Of a DNA stretch of 64,000 nt, positions 1-16,896 are shown one piece after another; position 1 is the first letter of the stretch; each line of letters opens with the position of its first letter. Made by a program: the position numbers and the translations under genes. The DNA comes from Pseudofrankia coriaricola (GTDB lineage Bacteria > Actinomycetota > Actinomycetes > Frankiales > Frankiaceae), in NCBI RefSeq assembly GCF_001854805.1, contig NZ_MBLO01000005.1, positions 1 through 64,000 of the forward strand. Reading direction: 5' to 3'. The notes beneath the pieces were generated by a model that had not been told where the DNA came from, did not search any database, and was given only the letters and a program-made list of their open reading frames with translations.

Positions 1-528
1 GTCATCGTCGGTTCGCAGGATGGCGCTTTTCGACCAGCGGGTGCCGGTGACGACGACGATGTTGACCTGCTCACCCGCGACGGGTGCACCGGTCGCCGCC
101 GCCGCGTGCACCGTGAAGGTCACCTGGTCGTTTGGCCTGATCGCCGTCTTGTCGGGCGTGATGGTCAGGGCTGTGAACTGCTGCGTCGGATTCGCGACCT
201 CCGCTGCCAGCGCCACGCCGGCGGGCGCGTCCGTCGGAGCCGGCTGGTTGCCAAGCATGGAGGCGCCGAGCATGGAGGCCTGCATGATCGGGTCAGCGGC
301 GGGCTGGCTGTCGCCGGGGGTGTCGGAGGTGGCCGCGGCGAAGCCCGTCATCGACGTCGCCAACGTTCCGCCGGCCAGGAGGACGACGGTGGCTGCCCGA
401 CGCCGAGGCTCGGTCGCCCGGCGGCGCAGGGACTCCTTGGGCGCCTCGTCCGGCCCCGATTCGGTGCCCGGGTCGCGCCTGGGCCACCTTTCGTCAAGGG
501 ACCGCCGACCGCCGACCCGAGCAGGCAC
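1..528 (-). CDS. Secreted/anchored protein with Ig-like domain, C-terminus off window
   Basis: The gene runs leftward off the window, so only about the first 176 residues are visible. The start is a GTG at 526-528 preceded by a strong GGAGGAGA ribosome site; it was chosen because this frame then stays open to the edge. The N-terminus is basic, with a hydrophobic segment at about residues 45-67, so it is a signal or anchor. A polar linker follows, then from about residue 105 a beta-rich stretch typical of bacterial Ig-like domains (TITPDKTAIRPNDQVTFTV). Actinobacterial proteins of this layout often end in an NlpC/P60 peptidase, but that end is not visible here. It is divergent from the blaI-like gene and has a BlaI-type palindrome about 60 bp upstream. 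Function is inferred only as envelope-related. Confidence 0.6.
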   Translation of the reverse strand, partial: MPARVGGRRSLDERWPRRDPGTESGPDEAPKESLRRRATEPRRRAATVVLLAGGTLATSMTGFAAATSDTPGDSQPAADPIMQASMLGASMLGNQPAPTDAPAGVALAAEVANPTQQFTALTITPDKTAIRPNDQVTFTVHAAAATGAPVAGEQVNIVVVTGTRWSKSAILRTDDD

Positions 529-2320: not shown

Positions 2321-4861
2321 TCACGGCACGGGGGTCGCGGTGGGCCGCGCTTCGGCGACGGGCTGCGTGTCCGCCGCCTTGGTCAACGAGCGGGGGAGGC
2401 GTAGCCGCTTGAGGAGGAGGGCGTTGACGGCGACGAGGAAGCTGGATCCGGACATGGACAGCGCGGCAATCTCGGGACGGAGAACCAGCCCGATGCCAGG
2501 CTCGAAGACGCCGGCGGCGATCGGCAGGGCGATGGCGTTGTAGCCGACGGCCCAGCCGAGGTTCTGGCGCATCTTGCGCAGGGTGCCGCGGCCGATCAGC
2601 AACGCGGCGGGGACGTCGATCGGGTCTGAGCGCATGAGGACGACGTCGGCGGTCTCGATCGCGACGTCGGTGCCGGCGCCGATCGCGATGCCGAGGTCGG
2701 CCTGGGCGAGGGCGGGGGCGTCGTTGACCCCGTCGCCGACCATGGCGACCCGCCGGCCGGCGCGCTGTAGCTCGGTGACCTTGGCGGCCTTGTCACCGGG
2801 GAGTACCTCGGCGATGACGGTGTCGATGCCAAGCCCGTCCGCGATCCGCCGGGCGGTGGCCTGGTTGTCGCCGGTGAGCATGACGACCTCGACTCCCGCC
2901 GCGCGCAGGGCAGCGACCGCCGCCGCCGAGGTCGGGCGTGGAGCGTCCGCGAGGCCGATCACCGCTGCCGGTTGTGCATCGACCGCGACGAGCACGGCCG
3001 TCTGTCCGTCAGCGGCGAGCGCGGCGCGCCGCTCGGCGAGGGCGCCCAGCTCGACTCCTTCGGCCTCCATCAGCCGTGGGGTGCCGACGGCGACCCGGTG
3101 TCCATCGACGGTAGCCACCGCGCCCTGCCCAGGAACGTTGATAAATTCGGCCGCCCTGGCCGGCCGCAGGCTGAAAGCGTCCGCATGCCGGACGACGGCC
3201 GCGGCGAGCGGATGCTCGGACTCCCGCTCCACCGCCGCGACCAGCTGCAACAGCTCGGCTTCGTCGACACCGTCGGCGACGAGCACGTCGGTGACGGCCG
3301 GCTCGCCCTTGGTCAGCGTGCCGGTCTTGTCCACCACGACCGTGGTGATCCGAGCAGCCATCTCCAGCGCGCCCGCGTTCTTGAACAGGATCCCGCGCCG
3401 GGCGCCGAGGCCCGTCCCGACCATGATCGCGGTCGGAGTGGCCAGGCCGAGTGCGTCCGGGCAAGTGATCACAACGACGGTGATGGCGAACAGTACCGCC
3501 TCCTGCGCTGGCCGATGGGTGGCGAACAGCCACACCAGCAGCGTGGCGAGCCCGCCGGCCAACGCCACCAGAACCAGCCAGAACGCAGCCCGGTCTGCGA
3601 GACGTTGGCCCGGCGCCTTGCTGTTCTGGGCCTCCTGCACGAGCGCGACGATCTGCGCGAGCGCCGTGTCCGCGCCGACCTTCGTCGCCTGGATCCGCAG
3701 GGCGCCGGTGGTGTTGAGCGTCGCGCCGATCACGGGTGAGCCCGGCTGCTTGTGGACGGGCAGGCTCTCGCCGGTGACCATCGACTCGTCGACGTCGGAC
3801 TCACCGGCCTCGACCACCCCGTCCACGGCGATCTTCCCACCTGGGCGGACGAGCAGCAGATCGCCGACGACGACCTCGCTGGTCGGGATCTCGACCGTCG
3901 CTCCGTCCCGCACGACCAGGGCCTTCTCGGGCGCCAGTTCGAGCAGGGTACGGATCGCGTCGTTCGCGCCGCCGCGGGCGCGCATCTCGAACCAGTGGCC
4001 CAGCAGCACGAACGCCGCCAGCACACTGGCCGCCTCGTAGAACACGTCACCGCCGCCGGTCAGCGTGACCACGGCCGAGTAGATCCAGCCGGTGCCGATC
4101 GCGACGGCGACCAGCACCATCATGTCCAGCGTGCGGGCGCGCAGCGCCCTGACCGCGCCGTCGAAGAAGATCCACGACGCCCAGAAGACGACCGGCAGAC
4201 TCAGTACCAGCTGGAACACGTCGTCGCGCATCCCGAACGGCGCCGGTACGTGGAACCCGAGCACGTCGCGCCCGATCGCCGACCACAGCAGGATCGGCAC
4301 CGAGAACACCGCCGCGACCAGGAATCGGTCGCGCATGTCGGCGACCATCGCCGACATCGACATCCCGCCGTGCCCGCCGTGACCCATCGCCTCGTGCGGC
4401 GACGCGACCCGTTCCCCCGGTCCCGTATGCCCGCCGTGCGCCACGGGTGTCACGGGTGTCACAGGCATCACCTGGGCGCCGACGTGCGCGGCGTGCACCC
4501 CATGGTCGTCATGCGTTGCTGGATGCGCCTCCCGGGGCACGGGCTCGGCCAGCGGGTCGCAGACGTGGCGCGGCACCGACTGCCCAGCGCAGTGATATCC
4601 GCAGTCACGGACCCAGCCGGCGAGCTCGGCCGCCGACGTCAGCCCCGGGTCGAACCGCACGAGCGCGGTCTGCGCGGTCGGGTTCGCCGCGACCTCGATG
4701 ACACCGGGCCGCCGGCTGAGTACGGCCTCCACCCGGGCCTGCTCGGTCGCGCAGCGCATCCCGGAGACCTCAAGAACCGCCGTCGCGAGGGCCGGCGGCG
4801 ATCCCTCTGAGCGCGGATTCTGAGCGGTACGCGGGTGTGGGTGGCGGTCCTGCCCGTCCAT
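2321..4861 (-). CDS. Heavy-metal (copper-type) P1B ATPase
   Basis: 846 residues. Order: an HMA-like domain (about 27-90), a His/Met-rich linker (about 110-176, [10 protein letters not shown]), transmembrane helices, the actuator loop TGES, the membrane motif C467-P-D, the phosphorylation motif D511KTGTLT, SEHP, TGDN and GDGVNDAPA, then YN and MSGSS in the last helices. The start ATG at 4861 has AAGGAG upstream. The YN and MSxSS residues and the Met/His linker indicate copper export. Two features are unusual. The membrane motif is CPD rather than CPC or CPH, a variant seen in actinobacterial homologues. The N-terminal HMA has GMRCATEQ, so the second cysteine of CxxC is missing. A CsoR-like operator lies about 107 bp upstream. 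It follows the ABC permease on the same strand. Confidence 0.92.
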
Positions 4862-4965
4862 GCTCGGCTCCTTATCCCCTCGCGGTGGAGGCTCGGCCTC
4901 GCTGCTGCCCGCCGCGGACCGGCCGCGCCGCCCCAGCAAGGACGGGCCATGCCGCCACAATCCGA

Positions 4966-6627
4966 CTATACCCCCATGGGGTATTTGCCCGGCGTCGTCG
5001 CGTGCCCGATCGGTGCCACCCCGCCGTGTGTGGGCCCAGGGTCGCCCGTCCGGGGAACGCGGGCGCGCGGGCGGCCGGGCGCGACGGCATGGTGGAACAC
5101 CGCGCCTGCCAGGACGGCCAGTGCCACGAGCCAGGCCAGGGAGATCAGCAACGGGATGGTCTCGTCGAACGTCGGGGTGAGCGCACCGTCGAGCATGATC
5201 CGGTCCGGACCGTAGCCGGGTAGGGCGTGGGCCCAGAGAGGTGGCTCGTCGCGCAACATCGGGCTCTGGCTGATACCGAGGTCGAGGAACGGCATCAGGA
5301 AGGCGATGAAGACGCCGGCGACCCGGCCGAACAGGGGCCCGATGATGACGCCGAGCAGTGCGTAGGTGACCGCGACGAGCAGGTTCGCGACGATGTAGAC
5401 GTCCCACTGGCGCGGGCTGGTCACGGTGGCGGTGATGGCGAGGGAGACGGCCGTGGCGACTAGGGCGGCGACGCCGACGGTGGTGAGGCGGCTGGCGAGC
5501 AGCGCGGGGACACGGTAGCCCGCCCGCGCGAGCCGCCGGTCGGCGACGCGGGAGTCGAGGACCAGGAACAGGCCGGCCAGCGCGGCCAGGGACGCGACCG
5601 CGATCGGCGCCATGGTCGCGCCGTGGACCTTGGGCATCGAGAACGTCCGCACTGTGCTCCGGCCGGCCTCGACGACGGTCATGGAGATCGGCCGGTTCGG
5701 GGTGGCGGCGTCGGCCAGCAGGATGAACACGGTCGGCACGACGACGAGCAGCACCCACAGCACGGGGATACGTCGGCAGTCCCGGAAACCCATCCGCAGC
5801 CCGGCGGCCAGCTGGTCGCCGACGGACCCGGGCCGGTGGCCAGGGCGTCGGCGGCCGGCGATGCGGCTGGCGGCCGTGACGACGGTGAACGCCACGGCGA
5901 GGGCGCCTGCCGTCCAGATAAGCGCGATACCAAGGTCGCCGATCCGTCCGCTGTGCCCGGAGGGCAGGTCGACCATCCACAACGTCAGGAAATGGGTCGG
6001 AAGGACGCGGGTGGCCAGCCGGTCCGCGGCGCCCATCGCCGGGCCGAAGAACACGTCGACGATCCAGACGAACAGGATCAGCACCATCCCGTTCACCGGG
6101 CTGTGCACGATCGCGCCGATGACGGCACCGATCGCGAGGTAGATCACCGCGAACATCAGCGTTCCCGCGATCGTGCGGCCGGGGTTGTCGACACCGGCCC
6201 GAAGCAGCAGGGCGACCAGCGCCGTCGCGGCCGCGAGCAGCGCCAGCACCAGCCCGCTGGCGAGCCTCGCCGCGACCAGCCGCGCCGGCGCGAGGCCCGC
6301 GAGCACCAGGCGCCGGTCAGCCGCGTGCGCCGCGCGGGTCTGGAAGTACATGGCGACGGCGGTGAGGAACCCGGCGGCCCAGCCGGCCGTCGCCGTCTGC
6401 ACCGCCAGCCCGCCAGGCCCGCCGAGCAGCTTGGCGGCATCGCCGAGGGATCCGGCCACGACGACCACAAACACAGTCGGGACCAGGACGAGCATCGGCA
6501 GGTTCACCGGGTTGCGGGTGTAGTCGGCCAGGAACCTGCGCACGAACAGCGCCAGACCGCTGACACCGACGGGATCGCCCGGGACCCGAGCGGGCTCGGC
6601 GTCTGGCATGAACCGCCTGGTGGTCAT
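4966..6627 (-). CDS. ABC-2-type transporter permease (duplicated two-half protein)
   Basis: A 553-residue polytopic membrane protein made of two similar halves. Each begins with a soluble lead-in, a hydrophobic stretch of the [16 protein letters not shown] / [18 protein letters not shown] kind, and then about five further helices. This suggests an internal duplication giving a complete membrane domain in one chain. The ATG start at 6627 overlaps the stop of the ATPase gene (ATGA), so it is coupled to it and they form one exporter. The substrate is unknown. Location between the P1B ATPase and an operator suggests a stress or metal link, but there is no direct evidence. Its last codons lie inside the CsoR-like operator. 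Confidence 0.85.
4968..4984 (-). promoter_or_regulatory. CsoR-like copper operator
   Basis: A 17-bp inverted repeat, ATACCCC-CAT-GGGGTAT, has perfect 7-base arms. It matches the known CsoR/RcnR-family operator style (TACCCC...GGGGTA). It lies about 107 bp upstream of the P1B ATPase start and overlaps the last codons of the ABC permease, so it also encodes that protein's C-terminal PMGV. No csoR gene is present in this window. Confidence 0.75.
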
Positions 6628-7409
6628 CGTGACCCCCTCACGTCGTCCTCCCGGCCGACAGCGTCGCCACGGCGCCGGGTCGCGTCGTCGCGCGGCACGT
6701 TGTCGCCGTCACGTGTTTGGGTGACGCCGTCGCGCAGCCCGACGATGCGGTCGAAGCGTTCCTCGTCGGCCACGAAATGGCTGATAACCAGCACGCTTCG
6801 ACCGGCGGCGCGGCGGTCGGCCACCAGCCGCCAGAACCGCTGATAGGTGTCCCAGTCGAAACCGGCATAGGGCTCGTCGAGCAGCAGCACCTCCGGATCG
6901 GCCAACAGCGCGAGCCCGAGGTTCAGTTTCGCCTTGGTACCCCCGGACAACTGGTCCGCACGGGTTCCCGCGTAGCGGGCGAAACCCAGCTCCTCATACA
7001 ACATCTGGCGCGACTTTCGCGCTGCCTCGGTCGTCATTCCGTAGGCATGCCCGAACAGCTCGAAATGCTCCTCGCAGGTGAGCCGTTCATACAGCACAGG
7101 TTCCTGCGGGCAGTACCCGAGCCGGCCAGATCTAGTGATGACGCCCGCGTCCGCGGCCAGCTCCCCGACCAGAATCTTCATCAACGTGCTCTTGCCGAAT
7201 CCGTTCTCCCCGACGAGCCCCACGACCTCACCAGGCCGCAGCGTCAGATCCACCCCGCGCAGCACCGGGTGAACCCGCCGCAGCGGCCACATCCCACGCC
7301 GGAACGACTTCTCGATACCGGCCGCCACCAACACCGGCTCCCCGACGCCGGCCGCGCCCCCAGACCTGTCCACCTGCCCCGCGTCCACCGCGAGCGTCGA
7401 CTCGGTCAT
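6624..7409 (-). CDS. ABC transporter ATP-binding protein
   Basis: 261 residues from ATG 7409 (an ATG four codons earlier at 7421 is possible). Walker A is GENGFGKST, with F replacing the usual A. The Q-loop is YCPQEP, the signature LSGGTKAKL, Walker B LLLDEP, and the switch His is in VISHF. It pairs with the downstream permease through a 4-bp overlap. The C-terminus is an arginine/aspartate-rich tail with no domain. The reading frame upstream is open without a stop into the MFS remnant, so a longer fused product is formally possible. A separate start is more likely, because the ATPase domain begins normally after the ATG. Confidence 0.88.
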   Translation of the reverse strand: MTESTLAVDAGQVDRSGGAAGVGEPVLVAAGIEKSFRRGMWPLRRVHPVLRGVDLTLRPGEVVGLVGENGFGKSTLMKILVGELAADAGVITRSGRLGYCPQEPVLYERLTCEEHFELFGHAYGMTTEAARKSRQMLYEELGFARYAGTRADQLSGGTKAKLNLGLALLADPEVLLLDEPYAGFDWDTYQRFWRLVADRRAAGRSVLVISHFVADEERFDRIVGLRDGVTQTRDGDNVPRDDATRRRGDAVGREDDVRGSR

Positions 7410-7421
7410 GATCCATCCCAT

Positions 7422-8220
7422 CCCTTCCGGCCGGAGGCGACGAGCACATTCGGGACCGGCGGGGACCGGTCGGCGGGAGACGCGTTTCGCCTCGTGCGCG
7501 GAAGCGTGCAACGACGCTGTCCTTCTCGGTGGACGAGGGTGACGGCGACCGGACCAGTGCACGAGGCCGACCGCGATGCCGAGGGCGATCAGCAGGCCGC
7601 CGGCCAGCATGAAATGGGAGGTAGGTCGCCAGGCGAGCAGGCTGACCCCGACGAGCGGGCCGACGAACTGGCCGGCGCTGTTCGCCGCGCTCTTCATCCC
7701 AAGGGCGGCGCCCGCGCGGTCGCCCCTATCGGTCGACACCAGGACCGACAGGCTCGGGGTGATGAACGCGGACCCCGCGGCGAGCAGCGCGACGATCCCG
7801 AGCACGGCGGCGAACGTGCGGGCCGTGACGAGGACGGCGATGCCCACACCCAGGACCGCCAGACCGCCGGCGACCTGGACGGTCGGTGACACGAACTTCG
7901 ACAGCACCCCGGCCGCGACAACCTGCAGGACAGCCATCACCAGCCCGCAGACCATGAACACGGCACTGGCCGAGGCGGGGCCGAGACCCAGCCGGCTTTG
8001 CCCGTAGAGCACGAACGTGCCCTCGAACAGCGCGGGGCCCGAGGACGAAGCCACGACCAGGCCGAGCAGCCAGCGCAGTCCCAGACCCTGCCGCCAGCGG
8101 TGCGTATCGTGCGTGAACTCGACGTCCTGGTCGAGATGTCGGGATTCGGGCAGGCCACGCACCGACGCGAGCAGCACGACCAGGGCCAGCAGCCCGGCGA
8201 CGAGAAACGGCAGGGTCGCC
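7422..8220 (-). pseudogene. MFS transporter, C-terminal half only
   Basis: The minus-strand frame encodes about six hydrophobic segments of the second half of a major-facilitator protein (for example GMKSAANSAGQFVGPLVG and the preceding AAGSAFITPSLSVLV). The N-terminal six helices are missing. At about 8220 the sequence switches abruptly to the C-terminal part of an NlpC/P60 gene on the other strand. The frame also runs into the ABC ATPase frame with no stop. It is best read as a rearrangement remnant that keeps coding character; export of a drug or small molecule would have been the original role. Confidence 0.7.
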
Positions 8221-8510
8221 CTGTCAACCCGCAGTACAGCTTCGACTGCTCCGGGCTGGTGCAGTACGTCTACAAGCAGCTCGGCAAGTCGCTGCCCCGC
8301 ACCACCGACCAGCAGGTCGCGGCCACAGTCCGGATCTCGCGCGGCTCCGAACAGCCCGGTGACCTCATCTTCTTCGGCGAGCCGGGGTCGATCTACCACG
8401 AGGGCATCTACGCCGGCGACGGCCAGATCTGGGTCGCGCCCAAGAGCGGCGACGTGGTGAAGCTCGAACCCATCTGGACGTCGTCCTACTACGTCGGCCG
8501 GGTTCCGTAA
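8221..8510 (+). pseudogene. NlpC/P60 (C40) endopeptidase, C-terminal fragment
   Basis: About 95 codons of the peptidoglycan-peptidase domain. The catalytic cysteine is in FDCSGLVQYVYKQLGK, the family PGDLIFFG follows, and the catalytic His is in YHEGIYAG. The stop is TAA at 8508-8510. There is no start codon or export signal; the N-terminal half is missing and the fragment abuts the truncated MFS gene. A perfect hairpin terminator follows 12 bp later, so the 3' end of the original transcription unit is intact. It may be a relative of the Ig-like secreted protein at the left edge. Confidence 0.75.
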
Positions 8511-8521
8511 CCCCACGGACG

Positions 8522-8562
8522 GCGGCCCGCGGGCGGGACATCCCCTCCCGCCCGCGGGCCGC
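8522..8562 (+). terminator. Strong hairpin terminator
   Basis: GCGGCCCGCGGGCGGGA (8522-8538) and its exact reverse complement (8546-8562) form a 17-bp perfect stem with a 7-base loop, just after the NlpC/P60 stop. There is no U tract, as is common in actinomycetes. Confidence 0.8.
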
Positions 8563-8610
8563 TGGCTAGCGTGCCGGCCCTCAGACGGTTCCCGCAGGAC
8601 CGCTACCAGG

Positions 8611-9336
8611 TCAGCGAGTAACTGCTAGCCGTCCTGTCCACGTGGCGGCCGTGTTCCTGGCGGTCACCGCGCCGTCAGGAGTCGTCGCGGGCGTAACCGC
8701 CGCGACCATGGGCATGTTCGTGTCCTGTCCCATTGGGGTGGCCGTGGGAGACGGCGCCGACGTCCGACTCTTGAGTGTCTCGGCGGCGCTGGCCGTCGAC
8801 CGGGTGACGAGCACGGTCGGCGGACCCGCGGGACCGTCGCCCGTCGACGGGTTGACCCGGGTAGGCCGCCGTCCGTCTTCTCCCCGATCAGGGGCAGCGC
8901 GGTGGCGGCGGGGGACGAACGCCGGAGTGGATGCGGCGTAGGTGGACCAGCGTTCGCCGAACCGCGTGGCGACTTCGCGCTCCTCGCTGCGGGCGAGCCG
9001 GGCGTAGACGGCAACCAAGATCGGAAACATGGCCAGGGTAGGGATCGTCGGCCACTGCAGCAGGAATCCGATCATTACGAGCAGGAGGCCGTCGTACTGG
9101 GGATGCCGGACCCGGGCATAGGGGCCGGTGGTGGCCAGCTTGTCGGTGCGCGCGGCCTCGTGCAGCACCCGCCAGGCGGCGGCGATCAGCCAGAAGCCGG
9201 CGCCGATGAAGACGTAGCTGGCCAGATGGAACGGGCTCAGGTGTGGGTCGCCCTTCCAGCCGATCAGGTCGTTCCACAGGTGCCCACCGGCATGGGTGTC
9301 GCGCAGGAGCGGGAACCTCGACCCCAGCCAGCCCGA
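8611..9336 (-). pseudogene. Isoprenylcysteine carboxyl methyltransferase-family protein, 5' truncated
   Basis: The minus-strand frame encodes the C-terminal core of the ICMT/PEMT-like membrane methyltransferases: a transmembrane segment (SYVFIGAGFWLIAAAW), then the hallmark GPYARVRHPQYDGLL and another hydrophobic stretch. A TAG sits immediately upstream at 9337-9339, and no ATG or GTG is available before the conserved core. The usual N-terminal helices are therefore absent. The last 80 or so codons are low-complexity and probably read-through beyond the original end. I read it as a decayed gene. An internal GTG at 9168 would give only a partial domain. Confidence 0.6.
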
Positions 9337-9510
9337 CTATGCCGGGCACCTGGGCATGGGGCGGTGACCGCTCGGCCCGGTGCCGCTAGGCCGAACAGCC
9401 CCTGCGCGCCCGTGCGGAAGGGAGCACCGTCGAAGGAGAAGGGATCGCGCATGGGGGCCGGCCGGAACCGCCGCCCAGTCCCAGCCCGATCACTGCGGGA
9501 GGTGGCTGTG

Positions 9511-9816
9511 ATGATGTATGGGTACGACCACGACATGAGTGGCTGGGGCTGGTTCGCCATGTCCGTCGGCATGCTGCTGTTCTGGGCTGTGCTCATCACC
9601 GGCGCGGTCCTGCTGGTACGCGCTCTGATCCGCTCCGACGAGCGGAACCGCCCCTCGACGCGACCGCCCACCGAGCCGCCGGCTACCCATGGACCGGCTC
9701 GTCTGTCGCCCGAGCAGGTGCTGGCCGACCGCTTCGCTCGCGGCGAGATCGATGAGCAGGAGTTCCGTGCCCGGCTGGCTGCTCTCCACGAGGCCGACCA
9801 CCTCGCCAAGCGCTGA
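9511..9816 (+). CDS. Small membrane protein with C-terminal SHOCT domain
   Basis: 101 residues. A short Tyr/Met/Trp-rich N-terminus (MMYGYDHDMSGWGW) is followed by one transmembrane helix (about 17-40). A polar linker leads to a SHOCT motif at about 68-95 (SPEQVLADRFARGEIDEQEF). GGAGGTGG lies at a good distance before ATG 9511. SHOCT is a short oligomerisation helix pair found at the ends of many actinobacterial proteins. Function is unknown; similar small proteins often accompany copper or multicopper-oxidase genes, which fits this neighbourhood. It is convergent with the next small membrane protein. Confidence 0.82.
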   Translation: MMYGYDHDMSGWGWFAMSVGMLLFWAVLITGAVLLVRALIRSDERNRPSTRPPTEPPATHGPARLSPEQVLADRFARGEIDEQEFRARLAALHEADHLAKR

Positions 9817-9874
9817 CGAGCGCGGCGGTATCCGTGGCCCGTGGGAACGCCGGCTTCGCGCCGCCTGTCGCCGG

Positions 9875-10189
9875 CTACTGGCGTTGGCCGGCGGCGACCG
9901 CGCCAGCGAAGAAGAGCGCTGCCGCGATCGGGTAGCCGGCGACGAGGTCGACCAGGCCTGAGGGCTGGCCGCCGAACACCTCCCAGCGCGCCAGCAGGTG
10001 CGCCAGGGCGACGACGGCACCGACGGCCATCAGGACCTGGCCCGCACGGATGATCCGCCGCCTGCGGCGATATCGCGCACGCCGCTCGGTCGCCTTGCGT
10101 TCCGCCGCTGTCAGTCCACCACCCGTCCGCGCCGCCTTGACCGTGCGAGGTTCTTCGGCTTCTCCGGGACCACAGATGCCCAGAGACAT
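9875..10189 (-). CDS. Small two-helix membrane protein, unknown function
   Basis: 104 residues if started at ATG 10189; an in-frame start at 10252 is possible but leaves almost no leader. An arginine-rich stretch (about 33-47, ERRARYRRRRR) is followed by two hydrophobic helices. No known family is recognised. The promoter carries the same bipartite BlaI-type motif as the leftward gene at the window start (10261-10284). It may thus be a member of that regulon. It lies downstream of, and on the same strand as, the multicopper oxidase. Confidence 0.55.
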   Translation of the reverse strand: MSLGICGPGEAEEPRTVKAARTGGGLTAAERKATERRARYRRRRRIIRAGQVLMAVGAVVALAHLLARWEVFGGQPSGLVDLVAGYPIAAALFFAGAVAAGQRQ

Positions 10190-12816: not shown

Positions 12817-13020
12817 GTGAGCCTGCCCCGTCGCATATCCAGCGCGCGGGTCCTCGCGTGGGCGCGGACCTTGCTGCTGGTCGGCGTGGTGTTGCTCGGC
12901 CTCATGCTGATGCATGGCGGCTTGTCCATCGAGCGGAGTCCTACGCCCGCTGCCGGCGCGGCCATTGCCACACATCCGGTCGCGCGCCTCGCCACTGACA
13001 TGGCCGCATCGACGGACCGG
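12817..13020 (+). pseudogene. Short membrane protein fragment joined to kdpD remnant
   Basis: A GTG start (MSLPRRISSARVLAWARTLL) leads into one transmembrane helix with a LMLMHGGL motif. This is similar in style to the start of the neighbouring Met/His membrane protein. At about 13020 the coding signal changes frame and becomes the membrane part of KdpD. The protein therefore appears truncated by the junction. Confidence 0.4.
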
Positions 13021-13735
13021 ACCGCTCGTCGGCGGGCTCTACCCGGCCGTGGTCACCGCGGTGGGAGCGGGCCTGCTCGCTGACTGGTTCTTCACCCCGC
13101 CCGTGCATTCGCTGTTCGTCCGCGGCCCGCTCAACGTCGTCGCGCTCACCGTCTTCCTCGTCGTCGCGCTCGCCGTCAGCGGCGTCGTGGAGGCCTCGGC
13201 CCGCTACGTCGGCGAGGCCGCCCGGGCCCGCGCCGAGGCGGCGATGCTCACTACGCTGTCCGGAAGCCTCATCGCCGGCCAGGTGGCGCTGCCAGTACTG
13301 CTCGACCGCGTCCGGGAGAGCTTCGCCGTCGAGTCGGTGACCCTCCTCCAACGCGGCGAGACAGGCGTCGCCCCCTCCCGCGACACCTGGGCTCTGGTCG
13401 GATTCCGCGGATTCCCGCCGTGCCTGGACCCGGACGACGCGGACACCGTCGTGCCCATCAGCCGGGACCTCACCCTGGCGCTGCGCGGCAGGGTCCTGCC
13501 CGCCTCCGACCGAAGCGTGCTGGCTGCCTTTCGCCGCGCAGGCCGCCGTCGCGCTCGAGCACCGCAGGCTCTCGACGAAGGCGGAGGAGGCGGCCGCCGC
13601 CGCGGCCACCGACCGCACCCGCACGGCGCTGCTCACATCTGTCGCCCCGATCACCCCGGCGGGAACCCATCTCGCACCGGCACGGCAGACCACGCCCTCC
13701 CGGCGTTCCTGCCACCGAGGCCTCGACGATAGTGC
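13018..13735 (+). pseudogene. kdpD sensor-kinase remnant (membrane plus GAF part)
   Basis: One frame encodes the second half of the four-helix DUF4118 membrane module (GLYPAVVTAVGAGLLADWFF). A coiled linker and GAF-like domain follow (SVTLLQRGETG, DADTVVPI). An extra T near 13530 (GCCTTTCGCC for the expected GCCTTCGCC) shifts the frame. The continuation AVALEHRRLSTKAEE lies in another frame. The histidine box after RTALL is degenerate (no SHDLRTP). The N-terminal KdpD domain, the kinase core and any kdpE are absent. This is a dead fragment of a potassium/turgor two-component sensor. Confidence 0.75.
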
Positions 13736-15783: not shown

Positions 15784-16896
15784 CTAGCGCAGAGGCCGGA
15801 AGAATGCCCGTACGTCATCCACGAAGATGTCCGGCACCTCCATCGCGGGGAAGTGCCCGCCGCGGGGGAGTTCGGTCCAGTGCACGATGTTGAAGAATCG
15901 CTCGGCGTGCGGCCGGAGCGACCGGACCAGTTCTCCCGGGTAATTGGCCACTCCGGTTGGCACGGAGACCCGTCGCTGCGGCACCATCGTCTCCGGGGCC
16001 TGGCGTCGCTCCCAGTACAGACGGGCCGACGACGCTCCGGTGAGGTTCACCCAGTAGACCATCACGTTGGTCAGCATCTGGTCCTTGGTGAGGACAAAGC
16101 TGCCGCCGGACTGGTCGGTCCATTCGTAAAACTTCTCGATGATCCAGGCCGCCAGCCCGGCCGGCGAGTCGTCGAGCAGGTAACCGATCGCCTGTGGTCT
16201 GGTCCCCTGAATCGCGTCGTAGCCGCCGCCAGCGCGTCCCATCCGCCGCGCCCACGCTGTTGGGGGAGCGGCCGCCTCGCCGCTGGGCGGCGGCACGTTC
16301 ATCAGGTTGACGTGCAAGCCAAGGACGCGTTCCGGGCGCAACTCAGCCATGTTGTAGGAGACGATCGCGCCCCAGTCCCCGCCCTGGACGCCGTAGCGCT
16401 GGTAGCCGAGCCGGTCGGCGATCTCACCGAAGGCGGCGGCGATCCGCCGGGGGTTCCAGCCCGCCTCCGTGGTCGGGCCGGAGAACCCGTAACCGGGCAG
16501 CGAGGGCACCACTAGGTGGAACGCATCGGCAGGGTCAGCCGGATCGGACAGCGGGTCGATCACGTCGAGGAACTCGACTACGGAACCAGGCCAGCCGTGG
16601 GTCAGGAACAACGGGACGGCCGTCTTGTGACGCGACCGAATGTGCAGGAAGTGGAAACGCTGGCCCTCGACCGTCGTAATGAACTGCTCGTAGCGGTTCA
16701 GGCGGGCTTCGTGGACCCGCCAGTCATAGGAGTCCAGCCAGTAGCGGATGATCCTCTGGAGTACCTCCAGGGGGATGCCCTGCTCCCAGCCGATGCCCGG
16801 TATCTCGTTCGGAAGCCGCGTCCGCCGCAGACGCTCGGCCAGGTCGGTGAGCACGTCGGCCGGCACGTCGACCCGGAACGGATCTAGCTCTGTCAC
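15784..16896 (-). CDS. Epoxide hydrolase (EHN plus alpha/beta hydrolase)
   Basis: 370 residues. The N-terminal EHN segment (about 1-110) covers the cap-supporting region. It is followed by the oxyanion motif H100-G-W-P-G, SLPGYGFS, and the nucleophile motif GGD174WGA. The C-terminal catalytic His is in RGGHFPAMEVPD. The family opens epoxides to diols through an aspartyl ester. Start: GTG at 16896, where the conserved domain begins; no better ribosome site is visible, so the exact start is uncertain. It lies near the haloalkane dehalogenase, and the two could act in sequence on halohydrin or epoxide intermediates. That is only suggestive. Confidence 0.87.
   Translation of the reverse strand: MTELDPFRVDVPADVLTDLAERLRRTRLPNEIPGIGWEQGIPLEVLQRIIRYWLDSYDWRVHEARLNRYEQFITTVEGQRFHFLHIRSRHKTAVPLFLTHGWPGSVVEFLDVIDPLSDPADPADAFHLVVPSLPGYGFSGPTTEAGWNPRRIAAAFGEIADRLGYQRYGVQGGDWGAIVSYNMAELRPERVLGLHVNLMNVPPPSGEAAAPPTAWARRMGRAGGGYDAIQGTRPQAIGYLLDDSPAGLAAWIIEKFYEWTDQSGGSFVLTKDQMLTNVMVYWVNLTGASSARLYWERRQAPETMVPQRRVSVPTGVANYPGELVRSLRPHAERFFNIVHWTELPRGGHFPAMEVPDIFVDDVRAFFRPLR

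Follow-up and report, generated by a model that had tools for sequence, protein, structure and literature searches.

A probable illegitimate-recombination scar joining two truncated genes in a metal-resistance island of Pseudofrankia coriaricola

Two unrelated genes on opposite strands, each lacking its N-terminal part, meet at about position 8220 of the window, the 64,000-nucleotide stretch of Pseudofrankia coriaricola DNA analysed here. We conclude with good confidence that this junction is a genuine scar of illegitimate recombination, with pseudogene remnants on either side, in a decaying and partly foreign copper/metal-resistance island. We regard the scar as real but ordinary.

Alignments, Pfam matches and DNA breakpoints agree on the structure of the junction, which is as the original prediction described it. 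At ~8220 the remnant of an MFS gene (MFS') gives way to the remnant of an NlpC/P60 gene (NlpC'), and the two stand back to back. DNA similarity to MFS genes ends at ~8215–8219 and similarity to NlpC genes begins at 8231–8234. Between them, at 8220–8234 (no strand), lie ~11–15 bp that can be assigned to neither gene. The joint is an abrupt switch between unrelated sequences with no long shared homology, as is characteristic of illegitimate recombination.

MFS' (7533–8219, minus strand) is the C-terminal half of its gene, corresponding to residues 207–435 of the 445-amino-acid ortholog in G002, a genome that matches Frankia sp. DC12. The remnant is 69% identical to that protein at the amino acid level, with no stop in the alignment, and its C-terminus is nearly complete, the match stopping 10 residues short of the end of the G002 protein. 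Pfam MFS_1 is matched over profile positions 153–333 of 347. A functional MFS transporter requires both six-helix halves, and MFS' retains only the C-terminal one. Its pairwise dN/dS is estimated at 0.49. The gene is rare: at E 1e-30 it occurs in three of 35 genomes of the family, namely the window genome, G002 and G006 (which fits CN3), the three being grouped in one genus. No MFS match was present in the stretches retrieved from G004, G014 and G017, and a pattern-based scan of genome contigs, which may omit records close to the window's genome, returned 15 loci with identity of at most 54%.

NlpC' (~8224–8510, plus strand) preserves the last 95 codons of an NlpC/P60 gene, which make up the catalytic part from the FDCSGL motif on, with the stop codon. 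The NLPC_P60 Pfam match at 8223–8507 (plus strand) covers profile positions 13–91 of 105, and 90 residues align by tblastn with the NlpC C-termini of G002, G006, G004 and contig C35 of the window's own genome at 86–92% identity. Between the joint and the catalytic cysteine there is no ATG, GTG or TTG, and the in-frame starts farther upstream sit in the reversed MFS'. A functional NlpC/P60 peptidase needs a complete domain, an N-terminal half and a start, a combination that NlpC' does not possess. Directly behind it stands a strong GC-rich hairpin (8520–8564, no strand; –53 kcal/mol for a 71-nt stretch, z –6.34), within which DNA similarity to the relatives stops (8559); a scan for T-runs found no terminator-like site at this hairpin.

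NlpC' lacks its N-terminal half and any start of its own ahead of the catalytic cysteine, and only half of a transporter is left in MFS'; the two are therefore most likely dead remnants, and the event that produced them was probably fairly recent. Both frames remain open. Pairwise dN/dS of NlpC' against its relatives is estimated at 0.17–0.32; between the intact genes of G002 and C35 the corresponding part gives 0.08. Private codon changes in NlpC' number 4 synonymous and 5 non-synonymous, against 7 and 3 in G002, 11 and 1 in C35, 2 and 1 in G006, and 11 and 9 in G004 (Fisher p = 0.37, 0.046, 1.0 and 0.70, respectively). We considered whether an excess of amino acid change marks NlpC' as decaying and discarded the idea, none of the four comparisons remaining significant at 0.05 once corrected for multiple testing.

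The junction lies among genes of a metal-resistance cluster. Downstream of MFS', all on the minus strand, are an ABC transporter ATPase with its own ATG (6624–7409), its partner, an ABC-2 type permease (4966–6627), and, in the same cluster, a heavy-metal P-type ATPase with HMA and E1-E2 ATPase domains (2321–4867). Full-length frames are still open in the ABC ATPase and the permease. On the other side lies ICMT' (8611–9336, minus strand), an isoprenylcysteine/phospholipid methyltransferase-like gene without its first ~64 residues: the G006 protein aligns to it over 8878–9330, beginning 64 residues past the methionine, and its match to a Streptomyces protein begins at residue 65. N-terminal parts are missing, then, in three neighbouring genes, MFS', NlpC' and ICMT'. 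The original prediction offered a clean illegitimate recombination or an assembly chimera; recombination is the favoured part of that statement, while the single clean event does not hold, because at least one further truncated gene, ICMT', adjoins. An Rfam search of 6600–9900 gave no match, and a scan of 7380–9400 for promoters and terminators found nothing. A DUF4118 fragment at 12914–13729 (plus strand), matching profile positions 40–106 of 107 only, looks like another truncated gene of the same island; we take DUF4118 to be a KdpD-type sensor.

Streptomyces plasmids show what an unbroken version of this neighbourhood looks like. We read plasmid gene order from three records, and in two of them, pFRL3 of Streptomyces sp. 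FR1 and plasmid unnamed2 of S. longwoodensis NBC 00630, permease, ATPase and ICMT form an unbroken operon. In both, and in genome G273, the order is permease, ATPase, hyp1 (a hypothetical protein of ~104 residues), ICMT, hyp2, and DUF2933 and SHOCT genes, where present, accompany the operon near a heavy-metal P-type ATPase. The genes for ICMT, ATPase and permease also adjoin in G036, where hyp1 was not detected. The window shares with the Streptomyces plasmids the order and orientation of permease, ATPase and methyltransferase near a heavy-metal P-type ATPase. Unlike them, it carries the joined MFS' and NlpC' between ATPase and ICMT, its ICMT lacks ~64 N-terminal residues, and its SHOCT-domain gene (9511–9816, plus strand) is inverted relative to its place in the S. 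longwoodensis plasmid and in G273. Neither hyp1 nor hyp2 was found in the window; the best tblastn candidate for a hyp1 remnant between ATPase and ICMT (E 0.026) lies inside ICMT', and a DUF2933 match (E 0.007) falls within the permease gene, and we attribute it to chance. The third record, Rhodococcus jostii RHA1 pRHL3, has homologous permease and ATPase genes beside a heavy-metal P-type ATPase, as in the window, and its annotation shows no ICMT in this stretch. An MFS gene lies ~0.9 kb upstream of the ATPase; BLASTP gives no recognisable relationship between its product and MFS' (E 0.06).

The permease-ATPase-ICMT operon was probably acquired from outside the genus, since the permease is absent at E 1e-50 from the six genus mates listed (G001, G002, G004, G005, G006 and G007; a seventh, G003, is outside that listing). 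At the same threshold it occurs in nine of 296 genomes of the class, the window genome included. In Table 1 of PMC9680954, the HTG column, which we read as horizontally transferred genes, gives 1,287 for Frankia sp. BMG5.36, the strain that the window's assembly matches, 211 for CN3, 89 for DC12, 14 for EUN1h and 651 for another strain.

MFS', NlpC' and ICMT' are truncated copies of genes that in G002 and G006 are grouped near a CopA-type ATPase. Of all the relatives of MFS' found, those in the CopA-MFS-(ICMT)-NlpC cluster of these two genomes are the closest, and the cluster also holds near relatives of NlpC' and, in G006, of ICMT'. There MFS and NlpC are convergent and 2–4 kb apart, in contrast to the head-to-head joint of the window; G002 and G006 have no match to the ABC permease (E 1e-50), and their breakages differ from that of the window. 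G006 relative to G002 has lost 805 bp, with 35 bp in their place (L035, 11661–11695), and the N-terminal half of its MFS gene is gone. The ICMT of G002 is a stub with ~23 residues left (L034, 10924–10992). The window's own genome contains the cluster a second time, on contig C35. This copy aligns with G006 at 91–93% and lacks G006 L035 10237–13132 (2,896 bp), a deletion that fuses CopA to ICMT at ~16031–16036 (L009); the overlap at this joint is ~3 bp by eye, and the BLAST ends overlap by 6. Different breakages are therefore seen at four loci (window, C35, G006 and G002), two of them in genomes assembled into one and two contigs. A breakage hot spot, in which end joining recurs in the metal-resistance cluster of the genus, is a tentative and rather unlikely reading of this pattern compared with the ordinary decay of redundant genes.

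Could the joint be an artefact of assembly, two true loci, where MFS and NlpC are each intact, having been misjoined at 8220? The assembly is a draft of 280 contigs (11,203,906 bases), further copies of NlpC sit at the ends of contigs (the start of C35, the end of C77 and the start of C101), and the first bases of the window fall within an N-terminal piece of NlpC type. A misjoin should leave orphan N-terminal halves, but the assembly yielded none for MFS and no unattached one of this NlpC type. Searched with the full-length G002 MFS protein, the genome returned the window copy at 298 bits and six other places at 27–31% identity and below 35 bits. N-terminal halves of NlpC occur in six places, with the C-terminal half alongside in all six. 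That search missed the piece at the window start (1–528, minus strand), which is truncated where contig C5 begins. This piece is not the lost half of NlpC' but belongs to a second NlpC type, as it is 45% identical to the copy at C35:11624 (E 6e-34) and only 30% identical (E 0.10) to an N-terminal half of the right type. When 7900–8600 was searched against the assembly (40 of 280 first-look candidates scored), no DNA match from another locus crossed the joint, the nearest others starting at 8234. The neighbouring genes and related loci are also broken. Since neither the missing halves nor a second instance of the joint turned up, we consider a simple misjoin improbable and give the chimera only a small chance. 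Separately, because several of its genes lie at contig ends, the copy number of the NlpC/P60 family in the draft may be incomplete.

Two other readings take the joint as genuine. One is a new chimeric gene, with NlpC' translated from a start in the reversed MFS' (for example 8136 ATG, 8109 or 8100 GTG, 7998 TTG) or MFS' fused to the ATPase; the other is the insertion, between ATPase and ICMT, of a mobile element or cassette carrying the joined pair. The open frames of both remnants speak for a chimeric gene, and the MFS frame does run without a stop into the ABC ATPase, as originally predicted (stop to stop, 6624–8624), though its meaning as a fusion found no support. Open frames are cheap at 70% GC: 41 codons separate the end of MFS homology (7533) from the ATPase ATG (7409), and with 0.021 stops per codon expected from the composition, all of them would be free of stops with a probability of 0.42. 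Given this chance and the ATPase's own ATG, which a purine-rich stretch precedes, nothing calls for a fusion protein, and we rejected it; annotators should not call a 630-residue MFS-ABC fusion here. Neither an NlpC/P60 enzyme deprived of its N-terminal half nor one half of a transporter would be likely to work, and a crude scan of 7380–9400 turned up no sigma-70-like promoter, which says little for an actinobacterium. A chimeric gene is hardly credible on these grounds. The cassette is very improbable as well. Both fragments do occupy the ATPase-ICMT interval, but Pfam found no transposase or integrase domain in the 30 window proteins scanned (52 candidate ORFs listed), and the joined pair is absent both from the matches listed for 41 genomes (at most seven candidates scored in each) and from the plasmid matches. 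Among 72,556 plasmid records, 136 match part of 6600–9500, and none of them spans 80% of that interval at a single site.

We therefore return to a scar of illegitimate recombination and to how it might have formed. A double-strand break repaired by end joining without long homology would have linked MFS and NlpC, each at mid-gene, with loss of both N-terminal halves. Had the ancestral MFS and NlpC genes been divergent, one deletion would suffice. The head-to-head joint is not one deletion away from the arrangement in G002 and G006, because MFS and NlpC converge there; from that order, a tandem duplication or a circular intermediate plus further deletions would be needed. The order immediately preceding the joint was seen in none of the loci examined. 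End joining is available to this organism, as its genome encodes Ku (184.9 bits), and the short unassigned stretch of 11–15 bp at the joint fits such repair but does not prove it.

Pseudogene remnants formed by non-homologous end joining or illegitimate recombination are of a general bacterial kind. With these the window shares a sharp junction, truncated genes and the lack of long homology, and it has nothing distinctive beyond them. The finding carries little weight alone; it illustrates the erosion of a duplicated or imported metal-resistance cluster in a Ku-encoding actinobacterium.
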